From: Methyloversatilis thermotolerans | GTDB taxonomy: Bacteria > Pseudomonadota > Gammaproteobacteria > Burkholderiales > Rhodocyclaceae | DNA length: 64,000 nucleotides | NCBI RefSeq assembly: GCF_000372885.1 | Contig: NZ_KB889967.1 | Location: 1,918,655-1,982,654, forward strand | Direction of reading: 5' to 3' | Shown here: one piece after another, positions 41,903-45,112 of the stretch | Layout of the letters: each line of letters opens with the position of its first letter | Position numbering within the stretch: position 1 is the first letter of the stretch | Made by a program: the position numbers and the translations under genes | Notes under the pieces: model-generated | Databases searched by the model: none | What the model was told of the DNA's origin: nothing | What the model saw: only the letters and a program-made list of their open reading frames with translations

Positions 41903-43003
41903 ATGTCCCGATTCCTCGACGAACCTTCCTACACCCACGGCCAGCGCGCGCGCACCGGCATCCTGCTGGTCAATCTGGGCACGCCGGACCGCCCGGACGC
42001 ACCTGCGCTGAAGCGCTATCTCAGGCAGTTCCTGTCGGACGATCGCGTGGTCGAAATACCGAAGGCTCTGTGGTGGTTCATCCTGAACGGCATCATCCTG
42101 AACGTGCGGCCACGCAAGTCTGCAGCCAAGTACGCGACGGTATGGACCGACGAAGGCTCGCCGCTGCGCGTGCATACCGAGCGTCAGGCCAGGCTGCTGC
42201 AGGGGTGGATGGTTGCCGAAGGACGCTCCGATATCGATGTGCGCTTCGCCATGCGCTATGGCAGCCCGTCCATCGCCGAAGTGATGCAGCAGATGAAGAT
42301 GGACGGCTGCCAGCGCATGCTCGTCGTGCCCATGTACCCTCAGGGTGCGTCCAGCACCACCGGCTCGGTGATCGACGAGGTCGCGCGCACCCTGCTGCGC
42401 TGGCGCAATCTGCCGGAAGTCCGCTATCTGCGCGCTTTCGCCGGTGACACCGGCTATGTCGGCGCAGTTGCCGCCAGCATCCGCGAACACTGGGCGCGCA
42501 ATGGCCGCGCGGACAAGCTCGTCATGTCCTTCCACGGCGTGCCCTATTTCCACCTGTCCAGCGGCGATCCCTATCACTGCGAATGCCACAAGACCGGCCG
42601 GCTGATCGCCGAGTCGCTGGGCATCGGACCGGACAACTACATGGTCACCTTCCAGTCGCGTTTCGGCCGCGCGCGCTGGCTCGAGCCCTACACCCAGCCG
42701 ACGCTGGAAAGACTGGCCTCCGAGGGCCTGCGCAGCGTGGACGTCGTATGCCCCGGCTTCGTTGCCGACTGCCTTGAAACGCTGGAAGAGATTGGCGAGG
42801 AAAACCGCGATGCCTTCCTTGCCAGGGGAGGTCAGCAGTTCAGCTACATTCCCTGTCTGAACGAACGGCCGGACTGGATTGCCGCGCTCGGCCAGCGCAT
42901 ACGCCTGGAACTGGGCCACTGGTGGGATGAAGCCGCACCCGGCGTCGGCGACGAACTGCAACAGCAAGCCGCTCGCGCACGGAGCATGGGCGCGGCGCGG
43001 TGA
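41903..43003 (+). CDS. hemH: Ferrochelatase
   Basis: 366 residues. It inserts Fe(II) into protoporphyrin IX. Seen: GILLVNLGTPDRPDAPALK at the N-terminus, YPQGASSTTGSVIDEV, the active-site His in SFHGVPYFHLSSGDPY and the conserved Glu region CLETLEEIGEENRD. Its end is followed closely by the hairpin that terminates the opposite-strand AP2-like gene. Confidence 0.97.
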   Translation: MSRFLDEPSYTHGQRARTGILLVNLGTPDRPDAPALKRYLRQFLSDDRVVEIPKALWWFILNGIILNVRPRKSAAKYATVWTDEGSPLRVHTERQARLLQGWMVAEGRSDIDVRFAMRYGSPSIAEVMQQMKMDGCQRMLVVPMYPQGASSTTGSVIDEVARTLLRWRNLPEVRYLRAFAGDTGYVGAVAASIREHWARNGRADKLVMSFHGVPYFHLSSGDPYHCECHKTGRLIAESLGIGPDNYMVTFQSRFGRARWLEPYTQPTLERLASEGLRSVDVVCPGFVADCLETLEEIGEENRDAFLARGGQQFSYIPCLNERPDWIAALGQRIRLELGHWWDEAAPGVGDELQQQAARARSMGAAR

Positions 43004-43010
43004 TGCGGCG

Positions 43011-43039
43011 AAAAAAATGGCGACCCTGAGGTCGCCATT
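43011..43039 (-). terminator. Intrinsic terminator for the AP2-like gene (shared hairpin with hemH)
   Basis: AATGGCGACC (43016-43025) pairs with GGTCGCCATT (43030-43039) across CTGA. On the minus strand a T-run of seven follows, a strong Rho-independent signal 18 bases past the AP2-like stop. On the plus strand the same stem lies 13 bases after hemH but lacks a T-run. Confidence 0.85.
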
Positions 43040-43057
43040 CTGTGTCTCACGCCGGCT

Positions 43058-43591
43058 TCATGCGGCTGCGCGGGCCTGAATCACATTCTCGTCGTTCTTG
43101 GCCTTGCGCGGACGACCGCGACGGGACGCGCCCGGATCGAATGCGCCATCCAGCTTCTTCAGCGCATCCTTGCGCGCCTTCAGCGCCATCTTGAATGCAC
43201 CTTCCTCGCCGTACTTGTTCACCGAGAACTTCACCCGTTTGCGGCGTCCGGACGGCAAAGGCCAGGAGGCCACCCAGAACCAGCGCTGCTTGTCTTCGGG
43301 CATGTCGCGGGTTTCCGAGGCGCAGTAGCGGCATACGCCCACTACGCCGGAACGGTTGTTCTTCTTCACGATGCTCGAGTATTCGCGCAGCGAGAACGGC
43401 GGGAATTTCGAAATGATGTCATCGCGGAACTGCTTCGCTGCAGTAAACGCCTTCTGCTTGCCCCCGAACACCCCATCGCTGAAGTGCTTGCGGTGGATCA
43501 CTCCGCGTCGCTGTATGGTCACGAGCCAGCCATGCGTGCGGCTGGCCTCGTTATCCACGCGGCTGATGCCATAAACTGAATTGCGGCTCAA
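43058..43591 (-). CDS. Tandem AP2-like DNA-binding protein with AT-hook-like tail
   Basis: 177 residues from a TTG at 43591, chosen because AAGGAG lies 8 bases upstream. Two AP2-like units are visible: residues about 5-60 (VYGISR, HGWLVTIQRRG, then AFTAAKQFRDD) and about 80-147 (SGVVGVCRY, WFWVASWPLPSGRR, FSVNKYGEEGAFKMALKAR). A basic RRGRPRK segment near 158-164 resembles an AT-hook. AP2-like domains in bacteria occur mainly in homing endonucleases and phage proteins; here there is no nuclease domain. It is preceded by a sigma-28-type promoter and followed by its own terminator. Its targets are unknown; a role as a DNA-binding regulator is inference. Confidence 0.75.
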   Translation of the reverse strand: MSRNSVYGISRVDNEASRTHGWLVTIQRRGVIHRKHFSDGVFGGKQKAFTAAKQFRDDIISKFPPFSLREYSSIVKKNNRSGVVGVCRYCASETRDMPEDKQRWFWVASWPLPSGRRKRVKFSVNKYGEEGAFKMALKARKDALKKLDGAFDPGASRRGRPRKAKNDENVIQARAAA

Positions 43592-43643
43592 GATCGGTCT
43601 CCTTCCGGTCAGCAACGGGCTTGCCCCGCGGCTTGTGAGGAGA

Positions 43644-43670
43644 ACTTCGGCCTGCCGGATGGAAACTTTA
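43644..43670 (-). promoter_or_regulatory. Sigma-28 (FliA) type promoter of the AP2-like gene
   Basis: On the minus strand TAAAGTTT (43670-43663), exactly 11 bases, then GCCGAAGT (43651-43644). The FliA consensus is TAAAGTTT-N11-GCCGATAA: 8 of 8 in the -35, the first five of the -10, and exact spacing. Predicted start near 43637, leaving a ~46-base leader with a good ribosome-binding site. Confidence 0.75.
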
Positions 43671-43726
43671 GAGGGGCGTCCGTGAAGTGCGCACGCTCGG
43701 GGCGCGTTCCCGGATGGTGGCTTGCG

Positions 43727-45112
43727 TCAGCGCCGTGGCGGCTGGCCGTCCGGCAGCAGTTCCAGATCCAGTCCCGAGCCAACCACCGCGAAACCGGACT
43801 CCGTGGGGAGTACCACCTCGTCGCCCTGGGCCGCCAGCGCCGCGTTGGCTCGCGTCAATCTCTGCACCACCGTGCTGATGAGCTGGCCGCGGAAGTGCTC
43901 CAGACATTCGTCGGACGCAAGAGCCAGTGCGGACGGACTGACTTCGAGGAAGGCGACCGGCGATGTCGCCACGACCGTGGCCGAGCGGCGACTGTGGTTT
44001 GGATCGAGATAACCCATTTCGCCCACCACCTCGCCCGGTCCGAGCTCGGCCAGCAGACGGCCGCCGACCACGATGCGGACATGGCCGGACACGATGAGTC
44101 CGAACCGCGTATCGCTTTCACCCTCGCGCATCATGATCGCGTTGTCGGCGTACTGGCGCCAGTTCGAGAAGCGCAGCACCTCCCATACCTCGACGTCGTC
44201 GAATTCGGTGAAGAAGGGCATCTTGCGCAGGATAGAGAAACGGGTCGTGTCCGGCGGTACGTACTTGTCGTCCAGTATCTTGAAGCGCACCGACGACAGG
44301 TCCTTCGCGAACTCGGCACCATTCTTGTAACGCGAATACAGGTCCTTCTCGAGCGCCTTGCGGATCACACGATCCATTGCCTCCGGCACCTCGGGATTGA
44401 GCTGCGACGCCGACGGCGGATCGGCATTGATGATCTTGTAGATGAGCTGGGCCGGATGTTTCGCGCGGAACGGCAGGCGACCGGTCAGCAGGTGGAACAG
44501 CACCACGCCCAGCGAATACAGATCGGTCTTCTGGTTCAGCGGATAGCCCTTCACCTGCTCCGGGCTCATATAGGCTGGCGACCCCACACCCATGATGAAG
44601 GTCGAATCCTTGTCGTTTTCCTTCGCGACATTCAGTGCCAGCCCGAAGTCGGTCACCTTCACCAGATCATTGGCGCCGATCAGGATGTTGGCCGGTTTGA
44701 TGTCACGGTGCACAACCCCGTGCCGGAAGGCGTAATCGAGTGCCATCGCGCACTTGAACACGATGCTCACCGCGCGCGGCAGGGGCAGCATCGTGTTGAA
44801 TTCGCAGAAATGATCGAGCGGCTGGCCGTCGATGAATTCCATCACCAGGTAGGCGCGATCCTCCTCGACCTGCGCGTCGTAGATGCGGATGATATTGGGG
44901 TGGTCGAGCTTGGCGGCGATCGCCGCCTCGGTCAGGAACAGCTTGCGCATGCGGCGCGACCACTTGCCCTGGTCCCGGTTGCGGTCGCCGAAATCGACCA
45001 GCTTGACGGCGACCATCTCCTCGATGTCATCGGATTTGCACAGGTAGACCGTGGCGGTCGCGCCCTTGCCGATCTCGCGTATCACCCGGTATTTGCCGAT
45101 GCGTTCGAGCAT
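43727..45112 (-). CDS. Serine/threonine protein kinase fused to a cyclic-nucleotide-binding domain
   Basis: 461 residues from MLERIGKYRVIREIG. The kinase domain is complete: Gly loop GKGATATVYL (16-24), Lys37 in VAVKLVDF, HRDIKPANIL (Asp137), DFG (155-157) and SPAYMSPEQ. From about 298 a CRP-type cyclic-nucleotide-binding fold follows: FFTEFDDVEVWEVL, GLIVSGHVRIV, and a phosphate-binding cassette GEVVGEMGYL with SRRSATVVA, keeping the Glu and Arg that contact the nucleotide. No transmembrane segment is seen. It is divergent from grpE and codirectional with the AP2-like gene 135 bases downstream. Ligand (cAMP, cGMP or none) and substrates are unknown. Confidence 0.9.
   Translation of the reverse strand: MLERIGKYRVIREIGKGATATVYLCKSDDIEEMVAVKLVDFGDRNRDQGKWSRRMRKLFLTEAAIAAKLDHPNIIRIYDAQVEEDRAYLVMEFIDGQPLDHFCEFNTMLPLPRAVSIVFKCAMALDYAFRHGVVHRDIKPANILIGANDLVKVTDFGLALNVAKENDKDSTFIMGVGSPAYMSPEQVKGYPLNQKTDLYSLGVVLFHLLTGRLPFRAKHPAQLIYKIINADPPSASQLNPEVPEAMDRVIRKALEKDLYSRYKNGAEFAKDLSSVRFKILDDKYVPPDTTRFSILRKMPFFTEFDDVEVWEVLRFSNWRQYADNAIMMREGESDTRFGLIVSGHVRIVVGGRLLAELGPGEVVGEMGYLDPNHSRRSATVVATSPVAFLEVSPSALALASDECLEHFRGQLISTVVQRLTRANAALAAQGDEVVLPTESGFAVVGSGLDLELLPDGQPPRR

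Follow-up and report, generated by a model that had tools for sequence, protein, structure and literature searches.

Most of what is known of AP2 domains in bacteria concerns homing endonucleases. Export of FlgM, on completion of the hook-basal body, sets the flagellar sigma factor FliA free. Literature searches, judged by title, returned no AP2 gene under the control of FliA. In Escherichia coli the mapped FliA site of tsr is TAAAGTTT-N11-GCCGAAAA, and the gene is listed with TAAAGTTTTTCCTTTCCAGGCCGAAAAT in the FliA binding table (PMC4183435). The regulon also extends to small RNAs: UhpU, MotR, FliX and FlgO are described as sigma-28-dependent and UTR-derived in the available part of PMC10578931.

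The window, i.e. the whole 64-kb stretch of DNA that was analysed, carries on its minus strand (43670-43644) the arrangement TAAAGTTT-N11-GCCGAAGT upstream of an AP2-domain gene. Our main reading, to which we assign a probability of roughly 0.8, is that this is a functional and maintained FliA promoter, that freed FliA would transcribe the AP2 gene and that its product would act on nucleic acid. The site is flanked by a kinase gene, which ends at 43727, and by a 177-aa ORF with a TTG start (43591-43058); this ORF shares the frame of a longer mechanical ORF (43058-43615). The features are:

43727-45112, minus strand: Ser/Thr protein kinase with a cyclic-nucleotide-binding domain (Pfam), upstream and co-directional.
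43671, minus strand: C before the -35 element, also conserved (41/48 non-redundant sites).
43663-43670, minus strand: -35 element TAAAGTTT (pattern scan and profile of 48 non-redundant sites).
43644-43651, minus strand: -10 element GCCGAAGT, family form GCCGAAAN (pattern scan and 48-site profile).
43637, minus strand: predicted transcription start, about 7 nt after the -10 element, from spacing.
43598-43604, minus strand: ribosome-binding site AAGGAGA, read in the sequence, 6 nt before the TTG.
43591-43589, minus strand: TTG start codon of the AP2 gene, read in the sequence.
43058-43591, minus strand: tandem-AP2 protein, 177 aa, TTG start (ORF, Pfam, alignment, model and Foldseek).

The initial annotation had reported a FliA-type motif at this place, and it was indeed found there with an 11-nt spacer, followed by a ribosome-binding site and a start codon; the predicted start near 43637 gives a leader of 46 nt up to the TTG. 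AAGGAGA precedes the TTG in 13 loci of the same genus as well (L009-L021, upstream alignment). A sigma-70-like promoter was sought in 42950-43760 and none was found. Calling the promoter near-perfect was an overstatement: the site (TAAAGTTTCCATCCGGCAGGCCGAAGT) has three mismatches to TAAAGTTT-N11-GCCGATAA, i.e. 13/16, with 8/8 in the -35 element and only 5/8 in the -10 element against GCCGATAA. With up to three mismatches allowed, the FliA-type pattern matches once in the whole window; 0.07 such matches are expected in shuffled windows, and seven of 100 shuffles contain one. The whole genome has 19 such sites against 10 for the reversed-motif control. Because of this the match count alone is no proof of a promoter, and the argument that thirteen matches are very unlikely by chance was too strong. 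By itself, before conservation counts, the 13/16 match is only suggestive.

As the initial annotation had proposed, the motif was searched before orthologues. Orthologues came from a protein search of 61 genomes (own included) and from a scan of a species-level genome collection, which yielded 74 loci. These loci were scored for a site of at least 12/16 within 250 nt upstream, allowing spacers of 10 to 12 nt. Such a site precedes 68 of the 74 named orthologues, against one of 74 loci for the reversed motif. The scores are 12 (7 sites), 13 (12), 14 (38) and 15 (11), and the remaining six loci score 9-11. Most sites are at -60 to -90 from the match start and the spacer is 11 nt in 67 of the 68 (12 nt in L044). 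Among 297 family genomes, 67 of the 73 close orthologues have a site of at least 12/16; the 74-locus and 73-genome sets overlap in many identical assemblies and are not independent counts. Across the 829,174 bases of the 74 loci there are 72 sites of at least 13/16 against one for the reversed motif, and 60 of the 72 are the AP2 site.

Collapsing near-identical sites left 48 non-redundant ones, with an 11-nt spacer throughout. In their profile CTAAAGTTT and GCCGAAA are nearly fixed; in order, it consists of C (41/48), a near-fixed TAAAGTT, T or C, 11 spacer bases, a near-fixed GCCGAAA and a variable base. The information content amounts to 1.1-2.0 bits in the -35 element and, up to its seventh position, in the -10 element (within the -35 element 1.59-2.00 for the first seven and 1.12 for the last T). 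It is at most 0.58 bits in the spacer and at most 0.29 bits in the upstream flank, except for the C before the -35 element, and downstream of the -10 element a weak C/T bias reaches up to 0.84 bits. The window copy differs from the family -10 form at one position (GCCGAAGT). As far as comparison can tell, bases, position and spacing that are kept while the spacer has drifted are the signature of a maintained promoter, and the AP2 gene is very probably a long-standing member of the FliA regulon in the family Rhodocyclaceae, to which the genus of the window, Methyloversatilis, belongs.

The site is absent before six of the 74 named orthologues and before six of the 73 in the family genomes. Five of these six family genomes have FliA (G035, G063, G076, G085 and G090), the sixth (G119) has FlhA, and G035 has another possible site at -289. 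Six loci of the family genomes with less than 60% identity have no site of at least 12/16 (scores 8-11), and neither has any of the ten distant-relative loci scored outside the family (ten of eleven, L265 being left out as wrongly anchored). Within 350 nt upstream, L028 scores 9, L030 scores 10 and L029 scores 12 (with a 10-nt spacer, at -265). Since the distant relatives, except L029, are without a site of at least 12/16, the FliA-type site is a fixed feature of the close clade. The order dnaK-grpE-kinase-AP2-hemH-hrcA-nadK is widely kept over the 74 loci, with a kinase match near the AP2 gene in 63 of them; in seven the AP2 gene is alone among the seven queried genes. The kinase is a syntenic neighbour, and a common transcription unit is only putative.

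The product had been described as AP2-like, an assignment backed by Pfam (PF00847, 40.1 bits against a gathering score of 33.3, whole protein, two stretches) and, weakly, by Foldseek, which matched a tandem AP2 protein from Plasmodium. A six-frame genome search gives 28.3 bits for a single stretch, below the cut-off, and the protein is the single match in its own genome. Its Pfam matches up to E 1 include no HNH or GIY-YIG families, and an AT-hook stays below the cut-off (12.8 against 17.4 bits, E 0.11). NCBIfam yields no match and PHROG insignificant ones only. Thirteen aligned members have a mean identity of 85% per column; identity to the 12 aligned relatives is at least 83% in ten and 66-69% in the other two.

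The AlphaFold model, which is weak (pLDDT 69.3, pTM 0.39), predicts two strand-strand-strand-helix repeats. Foldseek finds no PDB match at E 0.001 or below. The first match is a Toxoplasma mitoribosome protein (weak, E 1.3e-3, TM 0.26) and the second is Plasmodium SIP2, a tandem AP2 protein (6sy0, weak, E 1.5e-3); the third is again a Toxoplasma mitoribosome protein and the others are double-stranded-RNA-binding domains. Against BFVD, viral intron endonucleases come first (E 5.5e-5), and a sequence search of PDB chains gave no match at E up to 1. Judged from sequence, the gene encodes a nuclease-less tandem-AP2 protein, for which a role as regulator is something we infer; the 'late regulator' suggested initially is plausible. 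Of 368 other genomes from the class, 11 contain distant relatives, and some more are found within the family. One of these (L272) is an AP2-HNH fusion. Another (L267:1402-2256, minus strand) carries a lysine-rich stretch resembling histone H1 (HC2), which hints at a nucleoid protein, and in L030:1501-2040 an AP2-like N-terminal part (assigned by eye) is in frame with a TIR domain (PF13676, 75 bits).

A second FliA-type site is present in a sister genus (g10, Sulfuritalea-like). In nine loci, at a distance of 605-618 nt from the start of the AP2 gene, the other strand carries TCAAG(T/A)TT-N11-GCCG-type sites, and some 7-8 nt further on lies a sequence of about 100 nt with 95% mean column identity (10 sequences):

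L105:5252-5354, minus strand: the sequence of about 100 nt, at the same place in L027, L100, L101, L102, L106, L108, L110, L111 and L112.

On one side of this sequence is the kinase gene, on the other a gene that looks thioredoxin-like by eye; its predicted fold (-40.4 kcal/mol, z -3.3) has a long terminal stem. It has no Rfam match at the gathering score, and 0 of 32 pairs of the fold show covariation, with no compensatory changes. Under stricter search filters it is found in nine of the 297 family genomes, all of genus g10; G298 keeps it without a detected AP2 orthologue. We regard it as a candidate sRNA. A gene of about 340-390 aa adjoins the AP2 gene in L106 (4113-5159, minus strand), L283 (1671-2798, plus strand), L041 and L049, and follows the 100-nt sequence in several g10 loci. 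Its identification by eye as an EF-hand protein is unsupported (Pfam 13.1 of 25 bits). The gene has a FliA-type site of its own 140-148 nt upstream in L276/L027 and L283, its best site in L106 and L277 is the promoter of the candidate RNA, and in other genera no clear FliA-type site precedes it (scores 9-12).

Both the fold matches and the candidate RNA bear on the main rival explanation, in which the promoter depends on FliA, and the AP2 protein would have RNA or the ribosome as its target and be no regulator of transcription. Such a role would agree with the mitoribosome proteins in first and third place among the PDB matches, with the double-stranded-RNA-binding domains among the others and with a candidate FliA-driven structured RNA at the locus in one sister genus. 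However, none of the fold matches is strong (E 1.3e-3 and TM 0.26 for the best), the protein belongs to the AP2 family by sequence, and the distant HNH and histone-H1-like fusions point to DNA; the candidate RNA, present in 9 of 297 genomes and one genus, cannot be a general partner. We consider a role in RNA or ribosome biology unlikely, though it deserves to be kept in mind.

With respect to the sigma factor itself, the genome encodes two FliA-type proteins over the TIGR02479 cut-off:

G000:C1:195064-195729: FliA-type sigma factor (family profile match).
G000:C1:1642262-1642885: FliA-type sigma factor (family profile match).

Two copies are found in six of the 13 genus members searched and one in the others. 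Around the second copy (1642 kb) there are fliE- and rod-protein-like ORFs, named by eye. The AP2 gene had been said to be far from any flagellar cluster; this holds for the FliA copies (195 kb and 1642 kb, against 1919-1983 kb for the window), the only feature compared. FliA-type sites of the same genome precede motA-, flgM-, cheV- and fliE-like ORFs (named by eye). In this genome the family form is matched without a mismatch only once (TAAAGTTT-N11-GCCGAAAA, G000:C1:2382801-2382827, locus L002), before a large ORF that is FimV-like by eye, and a 15/16 site at G000:C1:873043 (locus L001) precedes an ORF that is HDOD-protein-like by eye.

The next explanation to be weighed is a real promoter or binding site that is read by something other than FliA. 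Its starting point is the -10 element, which before the AP2 orthologues is GCCGAAA against the textbook GCCGATA; in a scan of flagellar-region loci the GCCGAA form occurs in one of eight FliA-type sites (reversed control 2). Yet the tsr site of E. coli FliA has exactly this -10 form, according to the available part of the source (PMC4183435), and in the relative G035 a MotA-type motor gene (by eye) has TGAAGTTT-N11-GCCGAAAA. For these two reasons GCCGAAA is not a strong objection to reading by FliA. Conservation, the presence of FliA in the genome and the tsr form as given in that source strongly support the flagellar regulon membership put forward in the initial annotation.

Co-occurrence of the AP2 gene and FliA fails as proof of this membership. 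Counting close orthologues, which 73 of the 297 family genomes have, 68 genomes contain both AP2 and FliA, 5 AP2 without FliA, 197 FliA without AP2 and 27 neither. There is no association across these genomes (Fisher 0.28), and a value of 0.021 is obtained only after post hoc recoding of three genomes. Since 197 FliA-positive genomes are without a close orthologue, the AP2 gene is dispensable for flagella. It is not a flagellar necessity, and a few lineages have uncoupled it.

The apparent FliA-minus genomes might be taken to refute sigma-28, an argument that we rejected, as three of the five do have flagellar genes: FlhA is present in G242 and G119, and G285 has fliC- and flhD-like genes behind FliA-type sites (by eye). 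The other two, G154 and G272 (both 99% complete), lack detectable FliA and FlhA yet keep a perfect site; either a recent loss or assembly gap, or another reader of the site, would account for them. G154 also has FliA-type sites at chemoreceptor-like and HD-GYP-like genes (by eye). Given such sites in G154 and G285, the missing FliA would partly be due to assembly gaps or recent loss, and a reader other than FliA appears improbable to us. A chance resemblance without promoter function, in favour of which stand the genome-wide 19 matches against 10 in the control and the one position at which the window -10 departs from the family, is highly improbable, because orthologues from many genera have the site at the same position and with the same spacing although their spacers are not conserved.

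In the preferred reading, that of a maintained FliA promoter, export of FlgM after completion of the hook-basal body would free FliA, which would then transcribe the tandem-AP2 gene alongside late flagellar and chemotaxis genes. The protein, with its two AP2-type domains and basic tail, would bind nucleic acid in motile cells and adjust expression there, its likeliest role being that of a DNA-binding regulator or a protein of the nucleoid type. Comparison gives good support to the promoter step; FliA-dependent transcription, its timing, DNA binding and the regulatory role we infer from known flagellar biology and domain content. A tentative evolutionary scenario, possible but rather doubtful, starts from a homing-endonuclease-type DNA-binding module that shed its nuclease, became established by dnaK-grpE in the family ancestor and turned into a dedicated FliA-controlled late-flagellar regulator. 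In one sister genus this locus would then be a small FliA island in which the AP2 gene is joined by a non-coding RNA with structure and, in part of the genomes, by an additional protein gene.

If correct, the main reading enlarges the flagellar sigma regulon of a large family of environmental bacteria by a very conserved, uncharacterised gene, and it provides a testable physiological setting for a nuclease-less bacterial AP2 protein. At stake is whether the late flagellar programme reaches as far as a DNA-binding protein that acts on gene expression in the motile cell.

Compared with known systems, the window protein shares a predicted AP2-type fold with the AP2 homing endonucleases of phages and giant viruses, and its distant bacterial relatives include an HNH fusion (L272). 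Unlike these enzymes, it has no detected nuclease domain, is a single match in its genome and is well conserved. With Plasmodium SIP2 (ApiAP2, 6sy0) it would have in common two AP2-type repeats in one protein, as modelled; it differs in being bacterial and without a PDB sequence match, and the fold match is weak. The g10 candidate resembles UhpU, MotR, FliX and FlgO of E. coli as a small RNA behind a sigma-28-type promoter, whereas those are UTR-derived in the available part of the source (PMC10578931) and the candidate is an almost invariant intergenic sequence whose transcription is predicted. The AP2 site also resembles that of E. coli tsr, with the same TAAAGTTT-N11-GCCGAAAA arrangement and late flagellar control (available part of PMC4183435). 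Here, however, the site would drive a tandem-AP2 gene instead of a chemotaxis or motor gene, with FliA dependence predicted, and this gene is found beside the dnaK-grpE / hrcA-hemH region.
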